Origin: Tetracentron sinense
Lineage: Eukaryota > Streptophyta > Magnoliopsida > Trochodendrales > Trochodendraceae
Reading direction: 5' to 3'
NCBI GenBank assembly: GCA_015143295.1
Contig: CM026551.1
Span: 16,417,827 to 16,481,826, forward strand
DNA length: 64,000 nt
This document shows positions 6,441-36,556 of the stretch, piece after piece (within the stretch, counting starts at the first letter, position 1; each line of letters starts with the position of its first letter). Made by a program: the position numbers and the translations under genes. Under the pieces are notes generated by a model. That model saw only the letters and a program-made list of their open reading frames with translations, ran no database searches and had not been told where the DNA came from.

Positions 6441-6448
6441 TCTATCTC

Positions 6449-8536: not shown

Positions 8537-8870
8537 ATAACCGGATTCCTTCGAATCCGGTTACGCCACTGAGATCGCCATGTGTCCCTTTTAACACTCT
8601 AATTGTAATTAAGATTCACCCACCTATCCTTGGTTTTTATAAAATAATAGCCTTGAAATTCTCTATGGTTATAACCGGACTCCTTGGAGTCTTGGACTCC
8701 GATTACGCCACTAAGGTTGTCATGTGTCACTTTTAACATTATTTAATTGTGGTTAAGATTCACCCACCTCTAGGGTACACCCACTTATCCTTGATTTTTA
8801 GAAAACATATATGAAAAAAATTAACCCTAAGAGATAGTGAATTTTAACCAGGGTTTCAAACACAATAATA
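8537..8870. mobile_element. Two truncated MITE copies of the same family
   Basis: Left arms only. At about 8537-8640: CCGGATTCCTTCGAATCCGG, then CGCCATGTGTCCCTTTTAAC and TTAAGATTCACCCACC. At about 8669-8870: CCGGACTCCTTGGAGT, TTGTCATGTGTCACTTTTAA and TTAAGATTCACCCACC, ending with a partial right arm. These copies show the hairpin tip best. Confidence 0.6.
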
Positions 8871-12524: not shown

Positions 12525-12684
12525 TGTTGATATATATAATATCGATGGTATATTTGTAACAGGGTATATATGTAATGTTATCTTCTTAATATAAGATGCT
12601 AGTAGGGCTTTCTTTCCCTCACTAAGCAATTTACCCTAATCTATCTTCTTCTCTCTTTTCTCTTCGCTAAACCCTTTCTCCAAC
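12525..12684 (+). repeat. Left LTR of copia B1
   Basis: Starts TGTTGATATATATAATATCG and ends CTTTCTCCAAC just before the primer site. Homologous to the repeat starting at 19623 and to both LTRs of B2. Confidence 0.85.
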
Positions 12685-12697
12685 TTGGTATCAGAAC
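12685..12697 (+). other. Primer-binding site of B1
   Basis: TTGGTATCAGAAC matches the 3' end of the plant initiator-Met tRNA as used by copia elements, with one change from the usual TGGTATCAGAGC. Confidence 0.8.
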
Positions 12698-13260
12698 TTA
12701 ATAGAAGGAAGGATAGGAGCATTTAAAGTCGCAAGAACAACCAAAGAAAGGAGGACAACCACCACGTTTTTAGCCATACGGTTCTAGCTGTATGGCCTAG
12801 GCCTTATTTCCTTATTTTGGGTCTCTTCGAAGGTAATTTCTTAGAGAGTTTGATTTTAGAGGATTTTTTAATCATATATATATTGTGATTTGGTTCATTT
12901 TTGAAGAAGTTACAATGATTTGAAGAAAAATTTCAGCAAAATAATTGTTTCAGTTCAAATATGTTTTCGCTTGAATGGGATAATTTTAATGGTGTTTGTT
13001 AATCATGGATAGACCGGTTTTTTGTAAGGAACGTTTCCACACTGAGTTTACTCCATTTGGTTGAGATTTGAAGGTTCTATGATGTTTTCTTTTGAGCATG
13101 TTCTTACCAATTTTCACTATTAAAGGGAGTTTTATGCTTTGTTTGCTTATTACAGCATCTTAGATGATTTGTTTTGGTAATCTTAATACCTTTGGATAAG
13201 GTTTTGATGAAGTTTTGATTACCTGGAGGTGTGATTTAATTTTTGCCTCAAGTTTCTTCT

Positions 13261-14695
13261 ATGGATGTTAAGAATCTTACTCCGCCGGCTCTTTCCAACT
13301 CTGTTGTCCACTCTATCACCAATATTAAATTCAATAGTGATAATTTTCTTGCGTAGTGAAGTTTTGTTGAGCTTTATATTTGGGGTCGTTCTAAGCATAG
13401 TTCAAAAACCCGAAAGCTCAACTCGACTCGAAAGTTAGCCGAGTTGAGTAACTTGGAAAACTTGAAAAAAAAAATCGACTCAGTCCAACTCGAAATATAT
13501 ATGTAATAACTTGAAAACCTGAGTTAAAAGAGCTCAAAGTACGCTGGTTTTATGGCCTAAAACCTAAAAACTAAGTTTAACAGAACCCATAGTAGGTTAT
13601 CTTTGTAGACCCCAAAAAATATGATGCAAAAATAGTGTGACATTCGAGTTTAGGTTTAAAAAAAAGATAAAAATACACTTATGCGACTCGATCGAGTTAC
13701 CCGAGTAACTCAGCAAATAACGTCTCTTTCAAGTTTTGAGGTTACTCGACTCGAAATTCAGTCGAGTCGAGTAACTCGACCGAGTTACTCAGTTGACTCA
13801 CCGGGTTTTTGAACTATGGTTCTAAGATGGGGTATCTTGATGGTAAAACCCCTAAGCCAGAGACCGGTATTTTTGAGATTGCTACATGAGATGCAGAGAA
13901 TTACATTATTTTGGGCTGGTTGTTTAATTCTATGAGCCACAGGTAGCCGTGAATTACATTTTCTATAAGGATTGTCATGAGCTTTAGGAGGCTCTTATTC
14001 AGACTTATGCATTAGTGAAGAATGATGCTCAGATTTATCAACTTACTCGTGAGATTTCTCACTTTCAATAAGGGGATATGTCTATTTCTGATTATATTGG
14101 GGCTCTTCAGCATCGTTGGGAAGAATTGAACCATTATAAGTCTCTTTTTGAATTGTTTGTTGCTTCTGCAAAGATTATGATGAAGCAAATTGAGGGACAT
14201 CACATTTATGATTTATTGGGTGACCTTCAGGCCGAGTTTGAGCAGTTGGGCACTTAGATCCTTGCCACGTCTCCTCTGTCTTCTCTTCCATCGGTGTATT
14301 CCACCGTGCTCTGTGAGGAACGCCGACGAGCTGTTATGTCTTCGAGCTTCTCTCCTATGCTCCCTCCGAATCCTATTGCCTTTACTACTGATTTTCGTCC
14401 TCTAGGACGTGGTAGGGGGACTGATAGGGGTCGTCAAGGTCATGGTGGACGTGGTTGTGATAGACTTAATATTTCTTGTGCTCATTGTGGTTTAGTGGGA
14501 CATTATCATGATCATTGTTATCGCCTGCATGGCTATCCTGAGGGTTACCGGTCTCGTCCTGCGGCTCATTTTACTACGACTCCTACGATTGATTATTCAC
14601 TTACTCTCTCAGTTGTTGCGAGTGATCCTTTAAATTCCTCGAGAGCTCAGGTTGCTAAGATGATCTGCACTAAGTTTCGTCTGCAAAGTGACTGA
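13261..14695 (+). pseudogene. gag of copia B1, interrupted
   Basis: The reading starts at ATG 13261 (MDVKNLTPPALSNSVV) and continues as a UBN2/retrotransposon gag domain. The Trp after DNFLA is TAG, followed by TGA, and FQxGDM carries a stop (TAA) near 14071. A MITE (13396-13818) splits it. The C-terminal part (about 14294-14695) is open and has a complete zinc knuckle, CAHCGLVGHYHDHC (C-x2-C-x4-H-x4-C), followed by LHGYPEGY. Gag binds RNA and forms the particle; this copy cannot be translated through. Confidence 0.8.
13396..13818. mobile_element. TCGAGT-rich hAT-type MITE, 423 bp
   Basis: Inverted ends CATAGTTCAAAAACCCG and, from the right, CATAGTTCAAAAACCCGG. A perfect 8-bp target duplication GTTCTAAG lies at 13388-13395 and 13819-13826. 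The interior is dense in CTCGACTCG/GAGTTGAGT motifs. Sister element B2 has the unoccupied site (GGTTGCTCTAAGATGG near 32409), confirming the insertion. A relative lies at 46613-48025. Confidence 0.9.
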
Positions 14696-14769
14696 TACTT
14701 TTGGTGCTTCATCTTCACTTGCTGCCTCAAGTATCCATGCTCCCTCTGCCTATGCTGCCACTATATCAT

Positions 14770-15181
14770 CTTCTTCCCCTAGTTGGGGAATTGATTCTGG
14801 AGCCACTGATCATATGACTGGTGAGTCATAGGGTTATTCCATTTATTCACCTCCATCTCCTACTGCCAAAGTTCGCTTGGCTGATGGTTTTATTACTCCT
14901 GTTTTAGGAGTAGGGCACTTTCCTGTATCTTTGTCTCTCTCTTTATCTCATGTTTTACATGTTCCTCGTTTATCTTTTAACCTTCTTTCAGTTAGTAATC
15001 TTACTACCAAACTCAATTGTTGTGCTATGTTTTATCCTTTTTATTGTCTCTTTCAGGACCTGATTACAAGGAGGATTGTTGGTAGAGGCGTAAAAAGAGG
15101 CGAACTCTACTACCTTGATACTGATTATGCTCCTGATCGTGTCCCAGCTACTGCTATTGTTTTTCCTTTTTCTGTTGATGC
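14770..15181 (+). pseudogene. Protease and pre-integrase segment of copia B1
   Basis: WGIDSGATDHMTGES (about 14786-14830) is the aspartic protease active site (DSG) that cleaves Gag-Pol, followed by a stop and then the long segment to LDTDYAPDRVP. It is cut at 15181 by the hAT-like insertion; the reading resumes at 16846 with the GAG-pre-integrase motif. Confidence 0.8.
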
Positions 15182-16837
15182 CAAGATTCAAAATTTTGAT
15201 GATATGTATCGATTTCGCAGGGTCACGACACATCTAGACACTAAATTTTGCTTTTTACAATTTTTCGACAATATCGACTGATATTTCGTAAATATCAACG
15301 ATATTTAGTAAAAATTGGTCGATATTTTTGAAAGACTATTTGATTCTGTTTTTACAATTTTTCATTCGATATGTCGTGATATATAGGATATATCGCATGA
15401 TATATCCCATATTTTGTGGGATATTGTAAAAAAAAAAAAATAGTTAACTCGTGAAGAACAGGAAGAATCTCTCTTGTAGACCTATCACTGACACCAAGCA
15501 ACAACCTATAGATTATAGAATACCTGTGATTGAAGCCTTGAAGGCATGAACTCAATTGTTATTTAAACCATCAAGAATCCATGAGAAATACCATAATAGA
15601 AGAAGGAAAAAAAGAAAAAAAAAGAGTTTGAGAAGGATTTGGGAGTGGAGGAGGAATTAGGGAGGAGGGTACATACCGGCGGAAGAGGAGCCCCTAGTTG
15701 TCGCCATCGCCGAATTGTTGTCTTCCTCTGTCATCGAGCACTCAAGCAGCCAAGATGAGTCTCTCAGTCTCCCCTTTCTCTCGTATTCTTTAGTTGATTG
15801 AGATTTGAGACTTTGAGCTAAATGTTAAAACCTATAGGAATTGTGTTTTTAGGTTAAGCTATAAAGGTTATTTACGAAATAGAGCCCTAGTTATTCAATA
15901 ATAACTATAAGGTGCCTATTTATAAATACATTTTATTCTTACTTTTTTTTCAACATAGAGACCTTTTTTTTTTTAGAGAGAGACCCCTCCCTTACATTAC
16001 ACATTAATGATGTTTAAAAAATTGTATAAAATAAGAGTATTGGTAGTATTAACCTAATAATATTTCATAAATTAAATGTTATTTAACTATACTTAGTACT
16101 AATCTAATATGATGTCTTTTTATTTTCTTAGAAAAATTTATTTAATAAATAAATATCATATTATTTTTTTAGAAGGATATATATTAATAAATATATATGT
16201 TAGTATTTTCAAAGATACATTTTAACAAATATTTATTTTAGTTTATCTCTTTTAAGAAAAATATTTATTTAATATATGTCCTAGTGTTATTTTTTTAGAA
16301 AGATGTATTTTATGATGTTAAATATGTATATATACATATATCATCACACTAATGATGCATAGAAATATCAAGAAGAAATTATAGCTCAAACAAGCAGACA
16401 ACGCATGTCATTTAACTTGGAGTTAGAGATACTATTATTGATGTATTAACTATTATGTATGAAGTTGATTGTATTTGAGTTAATTGTTATGCTTGATTGA
16501 GAAATGAAAGCAATTTTTTATGTAAGTTACATCAATATTAGTGATTCATACATTGTCGTCAGCGTCAGCATCAGTACACGTCTTTAGCCCTCTCATTGTA
16601 TATCTTATATACATTGTTGTTGTTTTAAATTTTTTGATTCTCAGGTGTATTAACATCTATTTTTAACATTTACTGAAGTTTCATTGAAAAATTCCATGTT
16701 TATCACTATTTTTTTTTTTATGTTTTCCTCCACGTGCGATATTATTCCCACAATATCGATATATCTTGTGATATATCCCCGATATATCTTTTTTCCATGG
16801 CTCGACATGTCATGCGATATCAACATTCAGAACCTTG
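15182..16837. mobile_element. hAT-like element, GATATATC family, copy 1 (1656 bp)
   Basis: A perfect 8-bp target duplication GTTGATGC lies at 15174-15181 and 16838-16845. The ends pair: CAAGATTCAAAATTTTGAT at the left, and CAAGGTTCTGAATGTTGAT read in from the right. Subterminal regions are full of GATATATC and TATCGATA palindromes. No transposase is visible. The right third is homologous to the right third of the copy at 37974-40793 and, inverted, to the copy beginning at about 20297. B2 lacks the insertion. Confidence 0.9.
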
Positions 16838-16845
16838 GTTGATGC

Positions 16846-17580
16846 TACTCATGATCCTTATCGTTTATGGCATGTCAAGCTTGGGCATGTTGGCTCTAAG
16901 ACTTTGTATTCTTTGATTCCTACTTCTAGTAAAGTATATTCTTCATCTACTTTTCAATATGATACTTATGAGCTTAAACATGTTTGCGTTGTTTATCATT
17001 CTCGCATGCATAAATGTCGTTCTACTTTTGAGCTTGTTTTCTGATGTTTAGGGCCCATCTCAGGTTATCTCTAGTGATGGTTTTCGTTATTATGTTACTT
17101 TTATTGATGACTACACTTGGGCTACTTGGGTTTACCTTTTTAAGTCTAAGGATGAGGTGTTTTATAAATTCCAAGAATTTCATGCTACGGTTCTTACCCA
17201 GTTTGGTGGTCTTGTTAAGGCCCTTCGATCTAATAATGATGGTGAGTATCTATCCGCTACTTTTGTCCAGTATCTTCACACTCATGGTATTGTTCATCAG
17301 CTTACCTGTCCGTACACCCCTCAACAAAATGGTGTTACTGATCGCAAGAATCGTCATTTAGTGGGTGTCATTTGTGAGGCATGCAAGTGTTTAAGCCTTT
17401 TTGGTCAATGCCCCTTCTCACTGGATGTTTTCTCATCAATCGGGCACCTTCTCGTGTTTTTTATGGTTTCTCACTTTATTTGCTTCTTTGTCCCCAGGTT
17501 TCTATTTTTTCCATTGAGCCACAAGTGTTTGGTTGTATCTGCTTTGTTTAGGATTTTCATCCAAGTCTTCAGAAATTAGA
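16846..17580 (+). pseudogene. Integrase of copia B1
   Basis: LWHVKLGHVGSKTL (GAG-pre-integrase, about 16868-16909) leads to an integrase core read in shifting frames. DVWGP is DV*GP (TAG near 17049), FIDDYTWATWVYLFKSKDEV is present, the second Asp region reads SNNDGEYLS where SDNGGEYLS is expected, and PQQNGVTDRKNRH follows. The lost catalytic Asp and the stop codons mean it is dead. Confidence 0.8.
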
Positions 17581-17920
17581 CGATTTGTTGGTTATTCTAG
17601 CAAATCAAAGGGTTATCGGTGTTATGATCCCCAGTCTCGTCGCTTCTTTGTCTATCTGGATGTTACCTTTTTCGAGACAGTACCATATTTCTTTCTTGCT
17701 CCTACTATCCCTACCATTCCTTTGTCTTTACCTCATAATGTGCATATTGTCTCTTTGCCTTTACCTATTCGAGGGGATCTTCCACGACAGGAGCTTCTCA
17801 CATACTCTCGTCGACAACCACCTGGTTCTCTCTTCGATGCACTTATACCAGTTTTCTCAGTAGGCCACTCCACTAGGTACTTCTTCACCTTCCTTTATTC
17901 TTGTTCATACTTCTCTTATT

Positions 17921-18893
17921 ATGACTCTTGTTGTTTCTGATCTTGAGTTGCTTATTGCTCATCGCAAGGGTGTTCGTTCCAATGTTACTCCTTACCCTCT
18001 TGCCGAGTATGTTTTATATCAGGTTATATTTCTCTCGTACCAGGCTTTCCTCTCCGCTATTGATACTGTGACTATTCCTCGTTTTGTTCATGTTGCTCTT
18101 CTTTATCCTAAGTGGAAGGGTGTTATGGTTGACGATATGAATGCCCATCAATCTAATCATACTTAGGATATAGTTCTCCTTCCAGGTGGGAAGAAACCTG
18201 TGGGCTGCTGCTGGATTTTCACAGTCAAACATAACTCTGATGGCAGTGTTGTTCGGTATAAAGGCTCGGCTTGTCGCCCGCGGCTTTACTCAGACTTATG
18301 GACTTGACTATGATGTTACTTTTGCTCCTGTGGCCAAACTGACTTTTGTCTGTGTTCTCCTTTCTCTTGCGTCCAATCAGAGTTGGCATCTCTATCAGTT
18401 GGACATTAAGAATGTCTTTCTTATTGAGCATCTCACTGAGGAGGTATCTATGGATCCCCCTCCTGGTTTCCTACTTCAGGGGCAGTCTGGAAGGTTTGTA
18501 GACTTCGGAAGTCTATATATGGTTTGAAGCAGTTATCTCGTGCTTGGTTCCATCGCTTCAGTGAAGTGGTTCTAAGTATGGGCTTTCAGTGAAGTGGTCA
18601 CTCTAAGTACTGTCTTCATCCATTCCAGCGCCTCAGGTTGTACTATACTTCTGGTATATGTTGACGATATTATTTTGATTGGCGATGACTCCTCTTTTAT
18701 CTTTCATGCTAAGAGTGAGTTGAGGCGTACCTTTGAAGTCAAAGACCTAGGTCATCTGAAATACTTCCTTGGTCTAGAGATTGCTCGATCTAAGAAGGAA
18801 ATTTTTCTGTCACAGCGGAAGTATGTTCTTGATCTGTTGAGTGATACTAGTATGAGTGGGGGTAAACCTGCTACTTCTCCCATAAATCTGTAG
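17921..18893 (+). pseudogene. Reverse transcriptase of copia B1
   Basis: Recognisable blocks: the linker before the polymerase, ARGFTQTYGLDYDVTFAPVA (about 18273-18332), YQLDIKNVFLIEHLTEEV, MDPPPGF, and the catalytic LVYVDDIILIGDD (about 18650-18690), then KYFLGLEIARSKKEIFLSQ. TAG replaces the Trp codon at about 18163. A frameshift and a repeated TTTCAGTGAAGTGG patch near 18580 break the region before the catalytic block. Confidence 0.85.
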
Positions 18894-18965
18894 CTCTCTT
18901 TACATGATAGTGAGAGTGATCTTCTTCCTGATCCTCCTCATGCCTACCAGCGTCTCATAAGCCGC

Positions 18966-19612
18966 TTGATATATCTCACCTTCACTCGACTGGATATTAC
19001 GTTTGCTATTAGCATGGTTAGTCAGTTTATGCATGCTCCCCATGCTTCACACATTGTTGTTGTTCATCGTATTCTTCGATTTATTAAGTCTAAACCCAGT
19101 TGTGAACTTGTATATCGCTCACATGGGCATCTTAAGATCCCTGACTATACAAATGCCGATTGGGCTGGATCTGCTACTTATCGCCGCTCCACCTCTGGCT
19201 ATTGTGCCTTTCTTGGGGGCAACTTGGTTGCATGGAAAAGTAAAAAACAACTTATTGTTTCTCGCTGTAGTGCCGAAGCAGAATATCGGGCTCTTGCTCA
19301 TGGGACTTGTGAAGTTCTGTGGCTTCATTCTCTCTTTTCCGAGTTAGGATTTCCTGTTAAAGGTCCTATGTCTTTATATTGTGATAATGAGGCTGCCACG
19401 AAGATTGCTTCTAATTTGTGCTTCATTAGAGGACAAAGCACATTGAAGTTGATATTCATTTTCACCGAGAGAAAGTTCGGGATTGTTCATTATCTCTTCA
19501 GCATGTTTCATCTCCTCAACAACTTGCTGACATCTTCACTAAACTTGTTGGCCCTGCTATCCTCCAAGATATTACTGTCAAGCTGGGCATGCTTAATGTT
19601 TATGCTCCAGCT
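18966..19612 (+). pseudogene. RNase H of copia B1
   Basis: The RNase H blocks YTNADWAGSATYRRSTSGYC, VSRCSAEAEYRALAHG and LYCDNEAA are in one frame at about 19143-19400, and a frameshift spoils the terminal HIEVD block. The enzyme removes RNA from the RNA-DNA hybrid during reverse transcription. Confidence 0.8.
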
Positions 19613-19622
19613 TGAGGGGGAG
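19613..19622 (+). other. Polypurine tract of B1
   Basis: TGAGGGGGAG directly before the right LTR, the usual plus-strand primer of copia elements. Confidence 0.8.
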
Positions 19623-19750
19623 TGTTGATATATGTAATATTGAGGGTATATTTGTAAAAAGGTATATATGTAATGTTCCCTTCTTAATATAAGATGCTAG
19701 TAGGGCTTTGTTTCCCTCACTAAATAATTTAACCTAATCTCAATTCAACA
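19623..19750 (+). repeat. Right LTR of copia B1, shortened
   Basis: It matches the left LTR from TGTTGATATATGTAATATTG to about CTAATCT, after which the sequences part. The end at 19750 (TTCAACA) is my best guess. No convincing target duplication was found. Confidence 0.7.
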
Positions 19751-20296
19751 GAATCTGGGTAATTATCATTGAATTGAAACGCAAAGCACCTAGTTCCACA
19801 CATATTTCATGTAAGGTGAAATCTAAGGTATGGTTGCTCATAAGAATATAGTGGGAATGAGGTCTCCCATGTCTCATTTCTCGCTTCCTAAGGACATTTT
19901 GAGCCTCGCTTCCTTAATATAGCGTCCCTACTCATCTATTGAAACATACATCAGGATTCCTATTGGTGGATAAAGGTAATGATTTTTGATCACGTGTACC
20001 TCCTTGTCAGGTTGAACATATCCCAAAAAAATTGTTCTTCACGGAATTCTGCCGTCAATTCTTAACTCATTTGGGTTGATTTTTACCCAAGCCACTCATA
20101 TCTCGTTGAAAGAGGGAAAATCAAATTTTAAGAGGAACTCAAAATCCAGAAGTTTGTTGTCGAAATATCAAAGTTTCAACTGACTTCCTGATACTTCAAC
20201 ACTATAATGATAAACATCATCTCAATTTCTTGCCAAAATTGCGAATTATGCTTTATTTTGGAAATTATTCCAAAATATTAACGAATTTTAACCTAA
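19751..20296. other. No gene recognised
   Basis: Nothing here continues copia element A, which would be expected if B1 had simply inserted in it. The origin of this stretch is unknown. Confidence 0.4.
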
Positions 20297-21762: not shown

Positions 21763-22714
21763 ATGTCTAACATAAAAAGATGCTTGAAATTTGCATGTAC
21801 AGTATCGTTTTGTGGGAATATCGCAAGTTGAGGGAAAAATGGAAAAAATATGGAAATCTTCAATGAAACTTCAAGAATGCTAAACGATGTTAATACACAT
21901 TTGAGAAAAAAAAAATAACAATGTACATAAAAGATGCAATGGAAAGGGGGCAAAGATGTGCGTTGACGGCAATGTATGATTGTATAATATTGATATAAGT
22001 ACATAAAATATTTTATTCATTCCCGAATCACTCATAATAATAAAAATACACAATCAGCGTGTCATACATAATACATACATGATCCAACCCAGCCCAAGAA
22101 CTACGATCAGAGCCACATAGTGAAGGTAAAAATTAAGTTTCCCCCAATTTCTCCTCCTTAAAGTTAAAATTTTAAATTTCAAACTTAGAAATCTAGTGTA
22201 AATGCATCAAATTGATGCATTTGCACTGGTTTAGGACTAATTCATATTTGAACGCAGAACCCCATTCAAATTTGAAGAAAATTCTTACCTTTTAAGAAAA
22301 TTTTGCCAAAGGTAGTGCAAATGGGGTGCACTTTGATTCCAAATAATAGTGCAAGTGAATGTAGGTACAAAATGGGTGATTTCTAAAAAAAAAATCACTC
22401 AAATTCCTTTAAAAAATTCTCAAATCCGTCCTCTTTGATCGATATTTCCTCCTTTTATAGACTAAGGGACAAAATATCCCCAATTATAAAAGATATATCA
22501 GAAATACAAGGATCTATCGAAAATATTGGGAATATTTAGTATAAAAAGAGTTTTTTCCCGAAATACACCCAGGCTTTATTGGAGGGCCCTATGTACACCC
22601 CTTTTTTAAAACTTAACTTTTCTACACCTAACCTATTATTTCATGACATAAGTGCCCCTCTCACCAAAAGAAACAGCAAAAAAAAAGTCTCAGAGTTTTT
22701 TAAAGAACCCTTGC

Positions 22715-23232
22715 CCCTCTTGCACCTGTTTCAGTCTCGAGAAGACACTGCCTTGGGAGCCAGAGCCTTGCTGCCATTGACAAGCAAAAGGATAAGTTCA
22801 TTGCTCCAACACAAAAGGACAATAGAAGTACCTCTAAAATCCCAACTAGGAACTGACCTAAAATCCTCACAAAGGAGTTCCCAAAAACCAGCCCCAGAAC
22901 CAACTTCCCAAACCCTAAAAATAGTACAAAAGCACCACTTCGCCCTCCAAGACGGTACTGCCCAGCTAGTCCCTGGCGCCATGGCAAACGGGCATTGCTC
23001 CGAACCAGCAGCCCACTAAGTTCATTGCTCCAATGCTGACAGCCATAGCTGATACTTCTCTTTCGGGGAAAGGATTAGTAGAAAATTTACACAAAGCAAT
23101 CACCGATTTAAAACCGAGAGTGGTATTTGCGGGATTGCAACTCAAACAAATCCAGTTTTCCAATCATCCTATGTGATCTTGACAACATGAATCTTCGAAG
23201 GACCGAACTTGAGATATTTCGCAATTGAAGGA
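22715..23232 (-). pseudogene. Molybdate transporter (MOT1/SULTR5 family), C-terminal part
   Basis: Read on the minus strand from 23232 down, in shifting frames: AIPQIPLSVLN, then CKFSTNPFPEREVSAM, then NLVGCWFGAMPVCHGA (about 23030-22980), then GLAGQYRLGGRSGA, then KLVLGLVFGNSFVRIL and GQFLVGIL. These are hallmark stretches of plant molybdate transporter 1, a membrane protein that moves molybdate for molybdenum cofactor. After GIL the match stops and unrelated sequence follows (CLSMAARLWLPRQCLL), starting at a second copy of GGAGCAATGAACTTA. A stop replaces the Trp of TWDDW and a frameshift precedes GLAGQY, so it is dead. The N-terminal half lies beyond gypsy C. Confidence 0.85.
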
Positions 23233-23887
23233 TGATGTAAATCAAGGGCAGAATATCAAGCAAGAATTGGAATAATAACACAACTAATAATATTCCAAAT
23301 AACCTTTCAACTATCCACAAATACTATTTCAAAATCTGGAACAAACAAAGGGGTGTACCTTAAGCAAGCTGTTGGAAAACCAAAAACAGCAAAGGAAGAG
23401 AGTTCCTCTCGCGCCAAGATGCTGTGTAGAGGAGTCGATCAAGCCACAGATGAAATCTGACCTTGAATACTCTTTAATACCTTGCTGGAAATTGCATTAC
23501 AGCCACTATTATGAAGGTTAAAAGTACCTTTCCGCGCGAAACGCAGTGACAAGGCTGTAGGAACGTCTCGGAGCTTCAAGCTTCACGAAGGAAGTTCCCA
23601 ATCTCTCAAAACCCTAGTTGGAGGGGAGTATTTTCTCTTAGAAATCTCAGATTACCCCTTTCTTGTAGAGCAAGAAACCCTTTATAACCACTTAACCCCT
23701 TTTACAAGAAACACCCAAAACCTCTTAAAATTAGAAATAAGAACTCCATAAGTGAACAAATGACTAAAAACCCTCCCTCACAAATTCTAGGCAAAATTTT
23801 AAAAAAGGCCAAAACCCAAAAAGATAGAAATACCCTTGACGAAGAAAACCCTCAAAAAAACCTATGTTTTTTTTTTTTTTTACAACA
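23233..23887 (-). repeat. 3' LTR of gypsy C
   Basis: Homologous along its length to 28428-29097. It lies next to the polypurine tract CCTTTTAAGAGGAGAATG (minus strand, about 23887-23904). Its inner end reads TTACAACA where the partner has TTACATCA. Confidence 0.9.
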
Positions 23888-24066
23888 TTCTCCTCTTAAA
23901 AGGAACTCGCCTCCGTGCGAGTTGTTGCTTTGGAAGCTTGGCACATCTCAATATCAATTTCCATGAACTCCATTTCACTTATCCAGGAGTTCTCTGAATT
24001 AGGTTTTCCAACCCATTTCATGAGATAACGATAATATGTACCAACCCTAGTTCTGATTTCTCGCAC

Positions 24067-26055
24067 TTAGATTATCCTTTCAACCTTCTCTTTTGTCTTA
24101 TTGGGAATTTGGTCAAGTAACTCCCCCTCCACCGATCTTGTGCCAAGTTCAATATCACCATGATAACTATAAAGAACAGCCACATTGAAGATAAGAGATA
24201 TGTCGAGGTTATGGGAAAGTTCAACCTCATATGCATTCTCTCCGAACTTGCGAATTATCTTGCATGGACCAATTTTCTTGCTTTTTAACTTATGATAAGT
24301 ACCAGTAGGAAACCTTTCTCTTCGAAGAAATACCATGACCAAGTCTCCAACTTGATATTCTTTGTACCTCCTATGTCCATCACTCGCCTCCTTATATCGT
24401 TGATTCATCTCCACCAACTTTTGACGAACCTGATCTTGAATTTCCTTAAGATTTTCAGCATATGCAACCGCATCATCACTAACATGAGGCTGACCGGTTA
24501 CGTCCAAGAGATCAACAACCTGATTTGGATTTTGTCCATATATAATATCAAAAGGGCTCTTTCCTGTGGACCTATTCACAGAACTGTTATAAGCAAATTC
24601 AGCTTGTGCTAAAGTCAGATCCCATTGTCGGATATTGTCCTTTGCAAGACAGCGCAACAACTTTCCCAAACTCCGATTCACCACCTCCGTTTGCGCATCT
24701 GTTTGAGGGTGATAAGCACTAATGTATCGTAATTTAGTACCTAAGAGAATCCACAGAGTCCTCCAAAAATGACTTAGAAACTTCGTATCTCTATTAGATG
24801 TGATAGTCTTTAGAACACTGTGGAGTCTTACCACTTCTAGAAAGAACGGACTTGCCATGAGTGTAGCATCTAAAGTCTTCTTACATGCAATAAAGTGTGC
24901 CATTTTGGAAAAACGATCAACAACGAATATTGAATCCATACCCCTTGTTGTCCGCGGTAATCCCAAGACAAAATTCATGCTAATGTCAACCCAAGGAGCT
25001 GTAGGGACTGGTAATGGAGTATATAACCCAATATTCTGTTGCTGCCCCTTTGAAATTTGGCATATACAACACTTGTCAACAAGTTTAAAGACATCCCGTT
25101 GCAAAGTGGGCCAAAAATACCTTTCAGCAACTAAATGGAGGGTCTTACTTCTACCAAAGTGACCTCCCAAACCACCTTCATGCAATTCAGAAATTATGAA
25201 TTCTCGTAATGACCCCTCTGGTATGCACAATTTGGTTCTCTTGAATAGATAACCATCATTGAAAGTAAATTCAGCCAGTACCTTGTAATCCCTAGTCTGA
25301 CAACCCTCAACTATAGTTTGGAAATAAGGATCATTCTCATATTGTTCTTTAATCACATCCAACCCAACAACGCGCGTAGCCATAGTTTTCAACATATAAA
25401 CCCTCCGGCTTAAGGCATCAGCTACTTTGTTTTGCAAACCAGCCTTGTATCGCAACATGAAGGTATACTCTTGTAGAAATGCCACCCATTTTGCATGCCT
25501 TCTACTTAGTTTCCTTTGGGAATTAAGGAATCTTAAGGCTTCATGATCTGAGTGCAAAATGAATTCTCTTTGGATCAAGTAATGCCTCCAAAACTTCAAA
25601 GCTTGGACTATGGCATAGAACTCTACGTCATAAGTGGAATAGTTTTGCCGTGCTCCATTGAGTTTCTCACTAAAATAGGCAATTGGTCTTCCTTGGCTCA
25701 ACACAGCCCCAATACCCACCTTTGATGCATCGCAATCTACCTCGAACACTTTATCAAAATTTGGTAGAGCTAGAACCGGTGCTTCCGTCATTCTCTTCTT
25801 GACTTCTTGAAAACTTTCTTTGGCCTTAGGATTCCGGCTATAACTTCCACCCTTAAGACAGTCGGTAATAGGTGCCACTATGGTACTGAAGTTCTTGATA
25901 AATCTTCTATAAGATGTTGTCAGCCCATGGAAACTTCTAATCTCAGTTAATGTCGTTGGTGTAGGCCAACTTGTAATAGCTTTGATGTTCGATTGACTAA
26001 CCTCCACACCTTTAGATGATACCACAAATCCCAAAAACTCCAGTTTATCAACCAT
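24067..26055 (-). pseudogene. RNase H and integrase part of gypsy C pol, long open frame
   Basis: This 662-codon open frame starts inside the reverse transcriptase thumb (LEFLGFVVSSKGVEV, residues 5-19). It continues through RNase H (VDCDASKVGIGAVLSQGRPI, about 107-126; HSDHEALRFL; ADALSRR) and the zinc-binding integrase N-terminus (GHFGRSKTLHLVAERYFWP with CCICQISKG). The integrase core has D of WVDISMNFVLGLP, D of SNRDTKFLSHFW and E of YHPQTDAQTEVVNRSL, so D,D,E appears complete. A C-terminal PFDIIYG and GPCKIIRKFGENAYEVELS region follows. It ends 179 bases before the 3' LTR. The part is intact, but the polyprotein as a whole is not. Confidence 0.9.
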
Positions 26056-26091
26056 GAAGGAACACTTTTTAAGGTTGGCATAAAGCTGATT

Positions 26092-26448
26092 CTATCTTAA
26101 AAGTTGTAAAACAGCCTTCAAGTGTTCAACATGTGCCATGTAGTCCTTGTTGTAAATCAATATATCGTCGAAGTAAACTACCACAAACTTTCCAATGCAT
26201 GGCTTGAGAACTTGGTTCATGACTCTCATGAAAGTGCTAGGTGCATTGGAGAGTCCAAACGGCATAACCATCCATTCATAAAGCCCTTCTTTGGTTTTGA
26301 AAGCTGTTTTCCACTCATCTCCTTCCCGGATTCTTATTTGGTGGTACCCACTCTTCAAATCCACCTTGGAGAATACTTGAGAATCAGATAACATGTCAAG
26401 CATATCATCGAGCCTTGGTATCGGAAACCTGTCTCTAGAGTTCCTCAT
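26092..26448 (-). pseudogene. Reverse transcriptase palm of gypsy C
   Basis: [50 protein letters not shown] and the catalytic YFDDILIY are all present. A stop near 26091 separates it from the long downstream frame. Upstream the frame joins EHEEL directly to RFPIPRL: the roughly 60 residues that normally lie between, including the fingers with the KKDGSWRMCVD-type block, are missing. The enzyme cannot be active. Confidence 0.9.
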
Positions 26449-27073
26449 GCTCCTTTGGACTCATTCTGTAATGAGGAAGGTTTGGTAGGACAGCTCCTGG
26501 CACCAAATCGATGTGGTGTTGAATTTCCCTCATGGGAGGTAACCCTTCAGGTAGATCTTCAGGCATGACATCTTTAAAGTCATCTAATAACTCCTTTACT
26601 CTTTCAGGTATTAGTTGTGGACTAATCTCCTCCTTCCCAATCAGCACATATACTATTCCCCTCTCTTTGGTTTCTTCAACAAAATCATTCACATTTAAGA
26701 ATGTAGAAGAACTTTCACTTTTCCTCTTCACGATGTCGTCTTCCTTCATTGGTTTTAGCACAAACTTCTTACCATTCAAGAAGAAAGAATAGGTATTCTT
26801 GTCACCTTGATGCTTGGTCTTTCGTTCATATTGCCAAGGACGACCCAATAGAATGTGACATGCATCCATTGGGACAACATCGCACCACACCGACTCTTTA
26901 AATGAAGTCCCAATTGAAAAATTGACAAGGCACTTAGATGAGACAATAACCTCATTGCCTTTGTTGAACCAAAGAATGCAGTAAGGTTGTGGATGCTTCA
27001 CTATTTTAAGTTGTAACTTATCAACCACCTCTTGAGCGACCAAATTTTCACTATTCCCACTATCAATGATCAA
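26435..27073 (-). pseudogene. Aspartic protease region of gypsy C
   Basis: IIDSGNSENLVAQEV (residues 2-16) is the retropepsin-like active site with DSG. LVNFSIGTSFKESVWCDVVP and LLGRPWQYERKTKHQGDKN follow, typical of this protease in plant gypsy elements. The frame runs into the start of the reverse transcriptase ([14 protein letters not shown]). Stops lie upstream, between it and gag. Confidence 0.85.
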
Positions 27074-27169
27074 GTTGCAAAGTTTTCCTCCCGCGGTACA
27101 TCAAGTACGAAAGATGTTTTTACATAGCCAATCATCTTTTGACTTTGCTAGTGTTGCAAGCATGGATCG

Positions 27170-28348
27170 CTAGATGACTAGGGTTTCACCAACTATGTCG
27201 GCATCAAGATCTTCTTCCTCATCATTAGACTCATGAGTTGCTTCATGCTGATTTTCATCATCTCGATTTGCAGAATTTTCTTCCTCATTTGATCTATGTC
27301 CAATTTCTGAACACCTGTAACACTTGATGGTCCCTTGGCCTTGGAAATTGCCACGCCCTTGACCACCTCTTCCATTAGTAGGATTTGGTTGGTTGTTAGG
27401 ACGGATAGGAACTGTTGTTTGTCTTCTTTGGTTGGCATTGCCCCCACGGCTAGAGGTTGCAACCCCCCCTATGATCAGTCCCCATCTTTCTAGTAGCACC
27501 ACAGGTGAGTATGGCTTCAACTTTTAGTGAAAGCTGATAGGCATCACTCACTTTGAAGAAGCGATGCAGCCCTATCTAATCTTGTATGGCCAACCGTAGG
27601 CCATTCACATACCGGCTAACCCTTTGGGCTTCACTCTCGGCAAGGCTATTTCTTAATTAAAGTTTATGGAATTCTTGAGTGTATTCCTTAACAGTTTTAT
27701 CATGTTGCCGTAAATTTTGTACCTTTTGGTATAAGCTTTGCTCATAATCTCGGGGAAGAAATTGAGCCTTCAACTTCTCCTTCATTTTGTCCCATCTTCT
27801 TATCTTCCCCTTTCCCCTTACTTCACGATCATTTTGGTAATGCTTCCACCATGTAGAAGCTGGTCCTCTAAGTTCTGCACCCAGTTTTGCACCCACAATT
27901 TTTACCTTTCTTTCTTCCGAGACTTCTTTCCAATCAAAATAGCTCTCTAAACTGTCCAACCAGTCCAAGAAATCTTTAGCTTCCATTTCACCATTAAAAT
28001 CTGAAATTTGAACTTGTACACCATACTCTTTGGCATTTTGTAGAGCACGTACAATGCGATCTTCCCATCGTTGTGGTCTTTCGTTACATCTCATAGGCCT
28101 ATCAATTTCTGCTCTACTCTTATCACTAGAGTTACCTTCTTTCCTCTGATTCATTGAATCATCATCATTTGTTGCCCTCCTAACACGACCAGAATTTCAT
28201 CACTGTCACTATGCTGATCTGCGGCTGTTACACGCATAACCATCTGCGTGAGCTGCTGGATTTGTTGTTGCATGTCTCTAAACATCTCATAAGTTACTAC
28301 ATTTCTGCCCCCTCTACCACGATTCCCTCATGCACCTCTTGCAGCCAT
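27170..28348 (-). pseudogene. gag of gypsy C
   Basis: It likely starts at the ATG at 28348 (MAARGA), with a stop six codons on. A retrotransposon gag domain is open at 28154-27657 (LDWLDSLESYFDWKEVSEER; STWWKHYQNDREVRGKGKI; FLPRDYEQSLYQKVQNLRQ). Two further stops precede the Gly/Asn/Gln-rich tail (27520-27170) with a zinc knuckle CYRCSEIGHRS that has lost its last Cys. The protein would coat the RNA in the particle. Confidence 0.85.
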
Positions 28349-28413
28349 AATCGACATAATTTCTCACCCCAAGAAAGGAATAAAGTAAACAAACAGCCAC
28401 AAGGAGCGAACTT

Positions 28414-28425
28414 GCTCTGATACCA
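28414..28425 (-). other. Primer-binding site of gypsy C
   Basis: TGGTATCAGAGC on the minus strand, two bases inside the 5' LTR, is complementary to the initiator-Met tRNA 3' end. Confidence 0.9.
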
Positions 28426-28427
28426 CT

Positions 28428-29097
28428 TGATGTAAATCAAGGGCAGAATATCAAGCAAGAATTGGAATAACAACACAACAACTTATAATATTCCAAATAA
28501 CCTTTCAACTATCCACAAATACTATTTCAAAATCTGGAAAAACAAAAAAGCGTACCTTAAACAAGCTGTTGGAAAACCAAAAACAGCAAATGAAGAGAGT
28601 TCCTCTCGTGCCAAGATGCTGCATAGAGGAGTCGATCAAGCCACAGATGAAATCTGACCTTGAAAACTCTTTAATACCTTGCTGGAAATTGCATTACAGC
28701 CACTATTTTGAAGGTTAAAAGTACCATTGCACGCGAAATCCAGTGACAAGGCTGTAGGAACGTCTCGGAGCTTCAAGCTTCACGAAGGAAGTTCCCAATC
28801 TCTCAAAACCCTAGCTGGAGGGAAGTATTTTTCTCTTAGAAATCTCAGATTACCCCTTTCTTGTAGAGCAAGAAACCCTTTATAACCACTTAACCCCTTT
28901 TACAAGAAACACCCAAGAAACACCCAAAACCTCTTAAAATTAGAAATAAGACCCCCATAAGTGAACAAATGACTAAAAACCCTCCCTCACAAATTCTGGA
29001 CAGAATTTTAAAAGAGGCCAAAACCCAAAAAGACATAAATACCCTTGACGAAGAAAACCCTCAAAAAAACCAATGTTGTTTTTTTTTTTTTACATCA
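28428..29097 (-). repeat. 5' LTR of gypsy C
   Basis: Partner of 23233-23887. It carries an extra 12-bp tandem copy of AAGAAACACCCA near 28910. It ends TTACATCA, followed by the AAGGA target duplication. Confidence 0.9.
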
Positions 29098-29806
29098 AAG
29101 GATCAAGAAAAAAACACAGTACCAATCCAAACAAGAAAACCAAAAGGGCAGCTGGAATCGCCGATAAGATACACAATCTCGGACGAAGACGACGACCACA
29201 AGATTTATTCAAGCAAAGATTGATCAACGGCATCACTAGAACCAGTAATTAGAACTACAAAGAGAATTGAGGAGAAGGCAAGGACAAGGCCATCAAGACC
29301 AAGCCAAGGATGGGAAGATCCGGATTTCCCGGTAGTGAAATCTTGAGATGGGTTTGAGACTCAGAGATGGCGACGGAGGCGTCAATACGAGAAGCAAAAT
29401 GTTGTGGAGGAATCAATATCTCGACATGAGCCAAGGATTTCATGGGTTGTTGGACCGGCATCGGAATTCTGAAGAGAAAGCCGATGAGGATGTTGTAGAG
29501 AGCAGTGAAGATGAAAGTGGAGCCAAGGTCGAGATGATTCACGAGGGAGAGAGCCAGGACGATGGGTATGTAGGTGCCCAAATTTCCGACGGATCCTCCA
29601 AGTTCCGACCAGATTAAGGTCTTCAGGCGGAAGCTGGTAGCACATGATAAGCGGGGGAGGTGGTGGCACCACCGCCGGGGAAGGAGGGGATGTTTTTTGG
29701 GTTGGGGACTCCATGAAGAGAGAGATGTTGGGAGATTGAATTTCAGAGAACTGGGTGAAATAGATTTTCCGATTAGTTCAGTCGACAATGGTTGGCAATG
29801 CTCCAA
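29098..29806 (-). pseudogene. Molybdate transporter (MOT1/SULTR5 family), N-terminal and middle part
   Basis: On the minus strand a start MESPTQKTSPPSPAVV (from 29714) shifts frame into SFRLKTLIWSELGGSVG and NLGTYIPIVLALSLVNHL (about 29600-29540), FIFTALYNILIGFL, and IPMPVQQPMKSL. MOT1 proteins have the same order, with one fewer Q. Then comes an insert of about 15 codons, ASVAISES, a jump over a central segment, and PILGLVLMAL. Towards gypsy C it reads through the stretch that precedes AIPQIPLSVLN on the far side, so the gene was collinear before C inserted. Frameshifts and stops make it non-functional. Confidence 0.85.
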
Positions 29807-30209
29807 GGCAACGTCTTCTTAAGACTGAAATAGGCGAAGACAGACAGGATTTCTTAAGAAACTCTTAAGACTTTCTTTTGGTGTTTGTTTTGGTGGGAGG
29901 GGCACTAATGTCATGGAATAATAGACTGGGTGTAGAAAAGTTAAGTTTCAAAAAGGTGGTGTACATGGGCTCCCCAATAAACCCTGGGTGTAACCAAGGA
30001 AAAAACTCTATAAAAAAATACATGTAAGAGATATTTTTTACCTTGTGATATTGGGGATATGTCGGGGAATTTCCAAACCCGAATTTTTGTAAAACAACTA
30101 ATACCTTATGTCCAAAACTTTGTTGAACCTAGAATTAACGATAATTTGGCCGAACTATCGATAACTCCATCGAAGTTTTAAACCAATCAAATGAGAAACT
30201 AATGACCTT

Positions 30210-31540: not shown

Positions 31541-31721
31541 TTGATATATGTAATATCAGCGGTATACTTGTAAAAGGGCATATATGTAATATTCTCTCTT
31601 TATATAATATGTTAGTAGGGTTCTCTAATCCCTAATTAAGCAATTTACCATAACCTCTCTTTTTCCTCTCCTTTTTTTTTCTCTTCTCTAAACCCTAAAT
31701 CCTCTAAACCCTTTCTTCAAC
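31539..31721 (+). repeat. Left LTR of copia B2
   Basis: Starts (TA)TTGATATATGTAATATCAG (the TG start has become TA) and ends CCCTTTCTTCAAC before the primer site TTGGTATCAGAGC (31722-31734). Confidence 0.85.
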
Positions 31722-32284
31722 TTGGTATCAGAGCTACATCAAAGGAAGTATATCGTCGTTTAAAGCCGTAACAACAACAAAAGGAAGGAGCTAGCTGCCA
31801 CGTTTTTAGTCATATGGCTGTCTCTAGCCGTATGGCCTAGGCCTTATTTTTGGGTTCTTCAATTTTCAAAGATCTTGATTTTAGAGGATTTTTGAATCCT
31901 ATTTTATGAGATTTGGTTAAATATTGATAAGTTATGATGATTTGAAGAAGAAATACAGAAAATTTTGAAGAAAAATATTGTTTTGGTTCAGATTTTTTAC
32001 CGCTTGAATGGGTTGTTGCTTCTACTGTTTATTGGTCCTGATTGGACCCTTTTTTTTATAGGAACATCTTGAACCTGTTTTTTCTTCGTTTGGATGAGAT
32101 TTGAAGAAGTTGTGATGATTTTACAGCCCCACTTGACTAACGATATTTGCTGAAAATGGATTTTTTTACATCCTATTTGCTTATAACAACAACTCAAGTC
32201 ATCTCTTTGGTAATCTTAATACCATTAAATCTTTTGTTATTGATATTTTTGATTGATTGGTTATTTGTTCCTTGAGTTTCTTCT

Positions 32285-33034
32285 ATGGATGCTAAAGTTC
32301 TTGATCTGTCGGCTCTTTCTAACTCCGTTGTCCACTTTATCACCAATATTAAATTTAATTGTGATAATTTTCTTGCGTAACGATGCTCGGTTGAGCTTTA
32401 TATTGGGGGTTGCTCTAAGATGGAGTATCTTGATGGTAAGACCCCATAGCCGGAGATAGGTATTGCCGAAATTGCTAAGTGGGAGGCAGAGAATTGCATT
32501 ATTTTGGGTTGGTTGTTCAATTCCATAAAGCCTCAGATTGCCGCCGGGAATTATATTTTTTATAACAATTGTCATGAACTTTGGGAGGCTCTTATTCAGA
32601 CTTATGCCCTAGTAGACAATGATGCTTGGATTTATTAACTTACTCGTGAGATTGCTCCCTTTCAGTAAGGGGATATGACTAATTCAGATTATTTTGGGGT
32701 TCTTCAGCGTCATTGGGAAGAATTGACCCATTATGAGCCTCTTTTTGAATTATCTGTTGCTTCTGTCAAGATTATGACGAAGAAAAAATTTAGCGTCACC
32801 ACATTTATGATTTCTTGGGAGGTCTTTAGGCCGAATTCGAGTAGTTGCGCACTCAGATTCTTGCCACATCTCCTTTGTCATCTCTTCGATCTGTGTACTC
32901 CACTGAGTTTGGTGAAGAATGTCATCGGGCTGTTATGTATTCGATCATCACTCCTATGCCCCTTCCGGATCATATCGTCTTTGCTACTGATTTTTGTCCT
33001 GCTGTTGGCCGTGGTAGGAAGACTGATAGGGGCC

Positions 33035-33107
<73 letters not shown>

Positions 33108-33957
33108 CAGACCTACTATTCCTTGTAGTCACTATGGTATAGTGGGACATGATCATGATCATTGTCACTGTTTGCATGGCTATCCCGAGGGTTACCAGCC
33201 TCGTCCTTCTACTTACTTTACTACGACACCTGCTGTTGATCCTCAGTCCTCAATTGTTACCAGTGATCCTCTGGAATCCATGAGAGCCCAGGTTGCTGAG
33301 ATGATCCGAGCTAAGTTACGTCTGCAGAGTGATTCTCCTTATATTGCTGCTTCATCTGCCACAGGTATCCATACTCCCTCGGCCTATGCCGCCACTACAA
33401 TGTTTTCTTCTCCTAGCTGGGTTATTGATACTGGAGCTACTGATTATATGACTGGTGAGTCACAAGGTTATTTCATTTATTCACCTTCATTGCCTACTGT
33501 CAAAGTTCGCTTGGATGATGGTTCTTTTACTCCGGTCTCAAGATTAGGACACATTCTTGTGTCTTCATCTCTCTCTTTATCTCATGTGCTATATGTTCCT
33601 CATTTATCTTCTAACCTTTTTTCAGTAAGTAGTCTTACTACCAAACTTAACTGTTGTGCTATGTTTTATCCTTCTCATTGTCTCTTTCAGGACCTAACTA
33701 TGAGGAAGATTGTTGGTAGAGGAGTGGAAAGAGGCGGACTTTACTACCTTGACACTGATTATGCTCATGATCGAGTCTCCTCTACTACTGCTACTGTTTC
33801 TGTTTTTTCTTTTTTTGTTAAAGCTACTCTTGATACTTATCTTTTATGGCATGCCAAGCTTGGGCATATTGGATCTAAGACTTTATGTTCTTTGATTCCT
33901 ATTTTTAGTAAACTTTGTTCTTCATCTATTTTCAATGTGATACTTGTGAGCTTCTAA
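32285..33957 (+). pseudogene. gag and protease of copia B2
   Basis: ATG 32285 (MDAKVLDLSALSNSVV) opens a UBN2-type gag. TAA stops replace the Trp after DNFLA and the residue before GDM (near 32669). From 32845 a 370-codon frame is open. It holds an (Arg-Gly)n run encoded by a CGTGGT repeat, a knuckle CSHYGIVGHDHDHC (second Cys is Tyr), LHGYPEGY, the protease site SWVIDTGATDYMTGES with an intact DTG, and the pre-integrase LLWHAKLGHIGSKTLCSL. A frameshift follows at about 33940. Confidence 0.85.
33037..33108 (+). repeat. Hexanucleotide repeat CGTGGT x12 inside gag
   Basis: Eleven exact CGTGGT units and a final CGTGGC encode alternating Arg-Gly, an RGG-like RNA-binding tail. B1 has only a few imperfect units at the same place, so the run expanded in B2. 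Confidence 0.95.
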
Positions 33958-33959
33958 AC

Positions 33960-34500
33960 ATGTTCGTACTGTTTATCCTTCTCGGATGCATAGATGTTGT
34001 TCAATTTTTCAGTTAGTTCACTCGGATGTTTAGGGACCATCTCCTGTTCCCTCAAGTGATGGCTTTTGTTATTAAGTTACTTTTATTGATGATTACACTC
34101 GAGCTACTTGGGTGTACCTTCTTAAATCTAAGGATGAGGTGTTCTCTAAATTTCAGGAATTTCATAGTATGATTGTTACCCAGTTTGGTGGTCTTATTAA
34201 GGTCATTCGTTCTGATAATGGCGGTGAGTATCTTTCTGCACATTTTGTCCAGTTTCTTCAAACTCATGGGATTGCCCATCAGTTTACCTATCCTTACACG
34301 CCCCGAGCGCAAGAATCGTCATTCAGTTGGTGTCACTCGTTCTTTGTTGCGAGACATGCAGGTGCCTAAGCCTTATTGGTCCATGGCTCTTCTCACTACA
34401 TGTTTTCTCACCAATCGAGCTCCTTCTCGCATTCTTGATGGCCTCACCATATCAGTTTCTTTGCCCTCAAGTTCCTAATTTCCAATTGAACCACAGGTGT
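33960..34500 (+). pseudogene. Integrase of copia B2
   Basis: DVWGP is DV*GP (TAG near 34032). FIDDYTRATWVYLLKSKDEV, an intact SDNGGEYLSAHF, and HQFTYPYTP follow. After TP the frame shifts over a small deletion of the QQNGVA block into ERKNRH-like and SMALLTTCFLTNRAPSRIL sequence. The catalytic Asp is kept, but the chain is broken. Confidence 0.8.
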
Positions 34501-34746
34501 TTGGTTGTACTTGCTTTGTCCAGGATCCTCACCTTAGTCATCAGAAATTGGATGATAAGGTCATTTGATGTGTCTTTGTTGGTTACTCTAGCACCTCTAA
34601 AGGCTATCAGTGTTATGTCCCTCAGTCTCTTCATTTCTTTCTCTCTGGATGTTACTGTTTTTGAGACAGTCACTTATTTCTCTCCTGCTCCTACGGTGCC
34701 ACCTATCTTTGTGCCTTCACCTATTGTTTCTCCTGTATCTATGTCT

Positions 34747-35570
34747 TTACCTATTGCAGGGGACCTCCCACAGCAGAAGGAGGTCCCCTCGTACCAGGCC
34801 TTCTTTTTGGCAATTGACTCTGTGACTATTCCTCAGTCCGTTCGTGATGCTCTTCTTCATCCTAAGTGGAAGAGTGCTATGATTGATGAAATGAATGTTA
34901 TTCAGTCTAATCAGACTTAGGATATGATTCCCCTTCCAGCTGGGAAGAAACCTATGGGCTGTCGTTGGGTCTTCACTGTCAAACATAACTCTGATGTCAG
35001 TGTTGCCCAGTATAAGGTTCGTCTTGTCGCCCGCGGCTTTACTTAGACTTATGGGCTTGACTATGATGCTACGTTTGCGTCTGTGGCCAAACTGACTTCT
35101 GTTCGTGTTCTCCTATCTTTTGCGGCAAATCAAAATTGGCCTCTCTATCAGTTAGACATCAAGAATGTTTTTCTTAATGAGCATCTCACTGAGGAGGTGT
35201 ATATGGATCCCCCTCCTGGTTTCCTGCTTCAGGGGGAGTTTGGAAAGGTTTGTAGACTTCGGAAGTCTATATATGGTTTGAAGCAATCACCCCATACTTG
35301 GTTTCATCGCTTCAGTGAAGTGGTCCTTAGCATGGGCTTCCAGCGATGTCACTCTAATCATATTGTTTTCATCCATTCTGGCACCTTAGGCCGCACTACT
35401 CTCCTGGTATATGTTGATGATATCATCTTGACTGGCGATGACTCTCATTCATCTCTCAGGCTAAGCATGAGCTGGGGCATACCTTTGATGTCAAAGATCT
35501 AGGCCATCTGAAGTACTTTCTTGGTCTGGAGATTACTCGATTTAAGAAGTAAATTTTTCTGTCACAACGG
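34747..35570 (+). pseudogene. Reverse transcriptase of copia B2
   Basis: GCRWVFTVKHNSDVSV, RLVARGF (then a stop for Gln), AKLTSVRVLLSF, YQLDIKNVFLNEHLTEEVYM, DPPPGFLLQGEFGKVCRLRK, SIYGLKQSPHTWFHRFSEVV and the catalytic LLVYVDDIILTGDD (about 35400-35440) are present. A frameshift after that splits off KYFLGLEITRFK. It shares the TAG stop at about 34918 with B1. Confidence 0.85.
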
Positions 35571-35603
35571 GATTATGCTCTTGACCTACTCAGCGATACT
35601 AGA

Positions 35604-36317
35604 ATGAGTGGATGTAAACCCGCTACTTCTCCCATAGATCCGAAGCTCTCTTTGCATGATAGTGAGGGTGATCTTCTTTCTGATCCTCATGTCTATCAAC
35701 GTCTTGTGGGTTGCTTGATATATCTCACCCTCACACGACCAGGTATTACATTTGTTGTCAGCATGGTTAGCCAATTCATGCATGCTCCCCGTGCTTCACA
35801 CCTTGCTGTTGTTCATTGTATTCTCCGATATATCAAGGCTAGACCCTGTTGTGGACTTGTATATCGCTCACATGGTCACCTCGATATCTCCGGTTATACA
35901 GATGTTGACTGGGCCGAATCTACTACTGACCATCGTTCCACCTTGGGCTATTGTGTTTTCCTTGGAGGCAACTTGATTACGTGGAAGAGCAAAAAGCAAC
36001 CCGTGGTTTCTCGGTCTAGTGCCGAAGCAGAATATCGTGCACTTGCTCATGGCACTTGTGAACTCTTATGTCTTCGTTCTCTCCTCCCTGAGTTAGAGTT
36101 TCCTGTTAAAGGCCCTATGTCCTTATATTGTGATAACGAGATTGCTGCAAAGATTGCCTTAGATTCTATGCTTCATGAATGGACAAAGCATATTGAGGTT
36201 GATATTCGCTTTCTCCGTGAGAAAGTTCAGGATTGTTCTTTATCTCTTCAACATGTTTCGTCTTCTCAACAACTTGTTGATATCTTCACCGAACCGGTTG
36301 GCCCTGTTATTCTTTAG
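35604..36317 (+). pseudogene. RNase H of copia B2
   Basis: A 237-codon open stretch with LVGCLIYLTLTRPGITF, YTDVDWAESTTDHRSTLGYC, VVSRSSAEAEYRALAHG, LYCDNEIAAKIA and KHIEVDIRFLREKV, the complete run of copia RNase H blocks to the end of pol. This is the best preserved domain of B2. Confidence 0.9.
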
Positions 36318-36372
36318 GATATTACTATCAAGTTAGGCATGTTTAATGTTTATGCTCCAGCTTGAGAGGGAG

Positions 36373-36556
36373 TGTTGATATATGTAATATCAGGAGTATA
36401 CTTGTAAAAGGGCATATATGTAATGTTCTCTCTTTATATAATATGCTAGTAGGGTTCTCTAATCCCTAACTAAGCAATTAACCCTAACCTCTCTTTTTCC
36501 TCTCTTCTCTCTTTTCTCTTCTCTAAACCCTAAATCCTCCAAACCCTTTCTCCAAC
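36373..36556 (+). repeat. Right LTR of copia B2
   Basis: Starts TGTTGATATATGTAATATC after the tract TTGAGAGGGAG and ends CCCTTTCTCCAAC. Close match to 31539-31721. Confidence 0.9.

Follow-up and report, generated by a model that had tools for sequence, protein, structure and literature searches.

We analysed a 64,000-nucleotide stretch of the Tetracentron sinense genome (contig CM026551.1, positions 16,417,827 to 16,481,826; hereafter the window), which carries at 22548..30008 a Mutator-like element (MULE) with part of a gene for a molybdate transporter (MOT1) between its terminal inverted arms. The left arm (22548..22756, plus strand) begins GAGTTTTTTCCC and pairs with the right arm (29803..30008, minus strand). 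Each is about 207 bp long and 171 of 205 aligned bases are identical (83.4%; Kimura two-parameter distance, K2P, 0.192), in line with the minimum of about 100 bp that terminal inverted repeats reach in MULEs. Outside the arms, and beside an A-run, stands an exact 8-bp direct repeat, TATAAAAA (22540..22547 and 30009..30016), read as a target-site duplication. The element is interrupted by a Ty3/gypsy retrotransposon with long terminal repeats (LTRs), and once this and one copy of its AAGGA duplication are taken out, the transposon measures 1,591 bp. Outside the retrotransposon it has two open reading frames (ORFs) of at least 150 residues, that of MOT1 and an antisense one with no Pfam match; what lies between the arms is thus host gene sequence, matching MFS_MOT1 in two pieces, and no transposase. 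DNA folding of the left arm was unremarkable (z -0.34), and viral contigs searched with one 20-base arm motif gave no match.

The MOT1 pseudogene and its interruption

All MOT1 pieces lie on the minus strand, in gene order and collinear with an intact MOT1 gene elsewhere in the genome, designated C15; the window copy is designated C1. The 5′ part (29436..29725) is 87% identical to C15 and matches MFS_MOT1 (E 2.5e-12), with its start codon at 29714-29712 preceded by 11 to 15 bp of leader. It is followed by a 48-bp insertion (29388..29435, minus strand) that matches a repeat at C17, C24, C18 and C11, and then by a 44-base piece (29344..29387; 86% identical to C15) that ends at parent nucleotide 316. 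Here 178 bp of the parent (nucleotides 317-494) are absent, and the trinucleotide TCA is common to both sides of the deletion junction. The middle part (29098..29346) runs from coding sequence (CDS) nucleotide 495 to the gypsy insertion site at about codon 256 and is 75% identical to C15, whereas the 3′ part (22816..23232; codons ~257-397) is again 87% identical (MFS_MOT1 E 1.1e-8). The zone joining it to the inner end of the arm (22757..22815, minus strand) holds a 17-bp stretch that duplicates sequence about 220 bp away within the same pseudogene, the two copies being at 23033 and 22809. Of the three translated pieces, those of the 5′ and 3′ parts exceeded the Pfam cut-off, while the third, of 33 residues, had no Pfam match by itself. 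Compared with solved structures, the N-terminal part had no convincing relative (best E 0.57), and viral contigs searched with a MOT1 fragment yielded 36 pattern matches, none of which was confirmed.

In total, the window copy retains nucleotides 1-316 and 495-1192, that is 1,014 of 1,416 before small indels, or about 72% of the coding sequence. Its homology with C15 stops at nucleotide 1192 (codon 397 or 398 of 472), where the coding sequence meets the arm zone and the last 75 codons are missing. A frame of about 470 codons no longer exists, owing to stops that lie in register at codons 214, 277 and 286, indels that shift the frame, the 178-bp gap, the missing end and the gypsy insertion.

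The Ty3/gypsy element (23233..29097, minus strand) is bounded by LTRs at 23233-23887 and 28428-29097, which differ by a K2P of 0.0475, and by AAGGA at 23228..23232 and 29098..29102. Its coding region is broken into several ORFs; among three frames scanned, one encodes RNase H and integrase, one gag, and one is without a match. The class assignment follows from RNase H, integrase and gag with a Ty3-type capsid, together with the two LTRs and the short duplication.

These findings bear out the original prediction, which had described inverted arms with a direct repeat on both sides, two halves of a molybdate transporter in one orientation, and a gypsy element with its own AAGGA duplication splitting them. 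The arms are longer than the 150 bp then proposed, and the statement that almost the whole transporter had been carried, minus a central segment, does not hold, given the loss of the 3′ end as well.

Intact genes, sibling copies and the arm family

All 13 candidates raised with MFS_MOT1 in the 1.16-Gb assembly that contains the window were scored; they gave 8 matches, one pair in each of C15, C9, C1 and C21. Only C15 (open frame of 500 residues) and C9 (480 residues) are intact; C1 and C21 are broken. The C15 gene (C15:31495587-31497005, minus strand) is a single intronless ORF of 472 codons (MFS_MOT1 E 1e-61), and 9 kb of sequence surrounding it showed no window-type arms, so that an intact copy of the captured gene exists outside a MULE. 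C9 is more distant, sharing 269 of 443 aligned residues with C15, and is 61% identical at the DNA level (813/1329). Homology of the captured sequences with C15 begins in a CT-rich run ahead of the ATG, at a distance of 11 bp in C1 and of 15 bp in C21. Apart from this short leader no C15 flank was detected, and captured introns are lacking because the C15 gene has none.

DNA searches with the two captured parts, in which every candidate raised was scored (7/7 and 5/5), identified three further loci besides C15, the window and four loci that share only the 48-bp insertion. MOT1 lies between arms at C21:16084085-16086507; at C5:44980640-44981837 only its 3′ end is present, adjoining an arm; and C11:17153974-17154286 is a fragment of one arm and 65 bp of MOT1. 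The 3′ junction with its 17-bp repeat is common to C1, C21 and C5, with single-base differences. C1 and C21 also agree in having codon 286 replaced by TGA and in a pair of 6-bp deletions, their 5′ capture edges fall within 4 bp of each other, and the left edges of their central gaps (nucleotides 317 and 315) within 2 bp. The two copies differ in that C21 resumes at nucleotide 535 and C1 at 495, the gap of C21 being occupied by other DNA of about 500 bp, and in that C21 lacks both the 48-bp insertion and the gypsy element, whose insertion site is uninterrupted there. When the 2 kb on each side of C1 were compared with 17 fetched loci, the only match was to a repeat in L035, and there was none at the fetched C21, C5 and C11b loci. 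On these 2-kb flanks a segmental duplication of C1 and C21 was rejected, and the copies at unrelated sites indicate movement as a unit.

As a separate observation, C21 (L025 ~4966-5382) and C5 (L026 ~2760-2909) carry different short elements, both inserted into one particular TTA of the left arm, a position that is empty in the window copy. Their ends read GGGTGTGTTCGG/CCGAACACACCC in C21 and TGCTTCGTTTG/CAAACGGAGTC in C5, and a BLAST comparison of the two copies gave no noteworthy alignment within the inserts. They look like two independent miniature inverted-repeat transposable elements of PIF/Harbinger type at one preferred site, the type being suggested by the TTA duplication.

The arms themselves belong to a larger family. 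A query of 22548-22800 gave at least 43 genome matches, the window's own two included and several of them in inverted pairs; this count is a lower bound, as 40 of 121 candidates were scored. Ten paired elements, including that of the window, were scanned for duplications, each end being allowed to slide by up to 10 bases. Perfect 9-bp duplications were found at the arm ends of C8, C15b, C12 and C601, representing three independent elements. Other results were 8/8 for the window, 8/9 for C5 (right end truncated), 7/8 for C21c and 7/9 for C21; C21b showed A-runs only, and C21d has a 10/10 match that is rich in A and extends into the element's own arm, neither of which is informative. The C12 element (C12:41603488-41611099; 7.6 kb) begins GAGTTTTT, and its arms are 73-84% identical to the window's left arm. 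It contains an open ORF of 506 residues with MULE (PF10551, E 8.1e-35), FAR1 and Transposase_mut domains, linking the arm family to an element coding for a MULE transposase. The two elements are alike in their arms and in the GAGTTTTT start, whereas the transposase ORF is found only in C12 and MOT1 only in the window; a search of C12 for captured MOT1 parts found no match. In C601, the frame corresponding to this transposase is broken into several ORFs. Across about 9.6 kb that take in the flanks, C12:41602501-41612200 and C601:234901-244500 are 97.8% identical. They were for this reason counted as one insertion or two haplotypes; the pair would stem from a recent duplication, or else the assembly has retained an alternative haplotype. 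C12 is a candidate transposase source.

Both checks proposed with the original prediction, a search for an intact parent and one for further copies of the arms, thus gave positive results, and the question of captured introns, flanks or untranslated regions has its answer in the intronless C15 gene and the short leader.

Decay, order of events and competing explanations

To follow the decay of the captured gene, we compared the 889 columns with a base in each of C15, C1 and C21, the 48-bp insertion (CDS 274-301) and everything beyond nucleotide 1192 having been excluded beforehand. Identity was seen in 722 columns, while 60 differed in C15 only, 54 in C1 only and 42 in C21 only, and 11 showed three states. 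Changes private to one captured copy are spread evenly over codon positions (C1 16/16/22; C21 17/17/8; pooled 33/33/30, evenness p 0.91), indicating that C1 and C21 have evolved without detectable coding constraint since their separation. On the contrary, the 60 differences from C15 that they have in common are strongly biased (20/5/35, p 1.3e-5). Most of this common branch was passed in a functional gene, so that either the spread probably came soon after capture or a paralogue of C15 served as donor. By the time it began to spread, the captured gene had probably already lost its function, since the stop and the missing codons are common to C1 and C21.

Divergence between C1 and C21 (K2P 0.133) also allows the gypsy insertion to be dated as about 36% as old as their split, a relative age only, which assumes one neutral rate. 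This is consistent with the following order of events. A non-autonomous MULE probably acquired most of a MOT1 coding sequence, beginning a little ahead of the start codon and ending at codon 397, presumably when the template was switched in gap repair or replication; the central gap would be early or original. The resulting Pack-MULE then transposed, presumably mobilised in trans by a FAR1/MULE-type transposase, that of C12 or a relative, and gave rise to at least the C1, C21 and C5 copies and the C11 fragment. The gypsy element inserted into C1 later.

We consider it very probable that the window element is one copy of a small, ordinary multi-copy Pack-MULE family, in which a single capture of MOT1 was followed by transposition. 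Transduplication from a MOT1 gene elsewhere, as originally proposed, is supported by the intact C15 gene, the multi-copy arm family and the siblings at sites with non-matching flanks. The same evidence makes it extremely improbable that an ancestral MOT1 stood at the window locus and decayed there, with inverted repeats inserting on each side by chance. Such a history would account for a collinear pseudogene that keeps about 72% of the gene, but C15 is an intact MOT1 with no arms in the 9 kb around it, at C21 such arms again enclose the same truncated piece, at C5 its 3′ end adjoins an arm, a duplication stands outside the arm pair, and the coding sequence breaks off 75 codons early, where it meets the arm zone. 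We therefore rejected this explanation, and likewise that of a separate capture by each copy, which seems highly improbable. The different points at which C1 and C21 resume, and the other DNA in the gap of C21, could be taken as traces of recurrent capture; against this, one 3′ junction with the same templated repeat occurs in C1, C21 and C5, and C1 and C21 agree in their 5′ edges, both 6-bp deletions and the codon-286 stop.

Today's C15 gene may be the donor itself or a paralogue of a lost donor. That the captured sequence came from a lost or unassembled MOT1 paralogue is a tentative but real possibility, and it is a variant of single capture followed by transposition, not exclusive of it. 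It would account for the codon-position bias among the 60 common differences out of 889. Polarisation with C9 places 22 of the 55 common differences with an aligned C9 base on the capture side and 14 on the C15 side, leaving 19 undecided, and those on the capture side are again uneven by codon position (8/2/12, p 0.03). This polarisation is weak, because the outgroup is only 61% identical at the DNA level and third positions are near saturation. Also in favour of a lost or unassembled donor, the MFS_MOT1 search gave intact genes only at C15 and C9.

Several points weigh against the reading as a Pack-MULE family with one capture. The window duplication is 8 bp and not 9, and a 9-bp duplication would require the loss of one base from the A-run. 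Short or A-rich duplication matches carry little weight because the ends could slide; the best duplication of C21 is imperfect, C5 is truncated at its right end, and C11 has a single arm. The central gap does not end at the same nucleotide in C1 and C21, and the C15 lineage may have gained by insertion the two 6-bp stretches that are read here as common deletions. Further, the capture-side bias hints at a functional donor paralogue separate from today's C15 gene. Finally, the comparison is confined to one genome, in which the insertion itself is not seen, nor is the capture.

Relation to known Pack-MULEs and other features of the window

The window element agrees with Pack-MULE accounts (PMC8277862, PMC3310237, PMC13317346, PMC8903248). 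Like the elements described in two of these (PMC8277862, PMC3310237), it has long arms and flanking duplications and encloses host coding sequence but no transposase; an intact relative of the gene lies elsewhere, and several copies occur at different sites. It departs from the 9-11 bp given there as the Pack-MULE target-site duplication criterion (PMC3310237), which is also the range of MULEs in general, by its 8-bp duplication. A close parallel is PM-ZIBP of tomato, also a dicot, described in the same source as a multicopy Pack-MULE family and, like ours, built on one captured gene fragment; in contrast to PM-ZIBP as presented there, the arms in the window family are single and four loci were found (PMC3310237).

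The window element is also set apart by the captured length, about 1 kb from a single gene without introns, and by the gypsy element later nested in it. A captured piece of about 1 kb from a single gene is long. Among publications on Pack-MULEs, molybdate transporters and MOT1, no title pointed to a transposon-carried MOT1.

The process is known, and the window element adds a well-resolved example. It is a clean case in that events can be ordered in time within one genome, where the likely donor or its sister, the siblings, a candidate transposase source, the templated 17-bp junction, neutral decay and a nested retrotransposon are readable together. It provides a worked example for the question of how MULEs pick up unlinked genes, leaving the general picture unchanged. 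It seems very doubtful that transcripts or small RNAs from the MOT1-bearing Pack-MULEs act on the intact C15 gene; if they did, a transposon family would tune molybdate transport.

Elsewhere in the window, an open frame of 631 residues (801-2696) encodes a LysM receptor-like kinase with a LYK4/5-type LysM3 domain. A cluster of related short repeats with a motif like TTAATTGTGGTTAAGATTCACCCACC occupies 3568-8821, has relatives in L035 and includes a 94% palindrome (4940-5063 and 5166-5289). Two related elements, at 12500-19800 and 31541-36514, are 75-88% alike in blocks. The latter has direct repeats that are 92% identical (31541-31680 and 36375-36514) and encodes a copia-type reverse transcriptase (RVT_2, E 9e-38).
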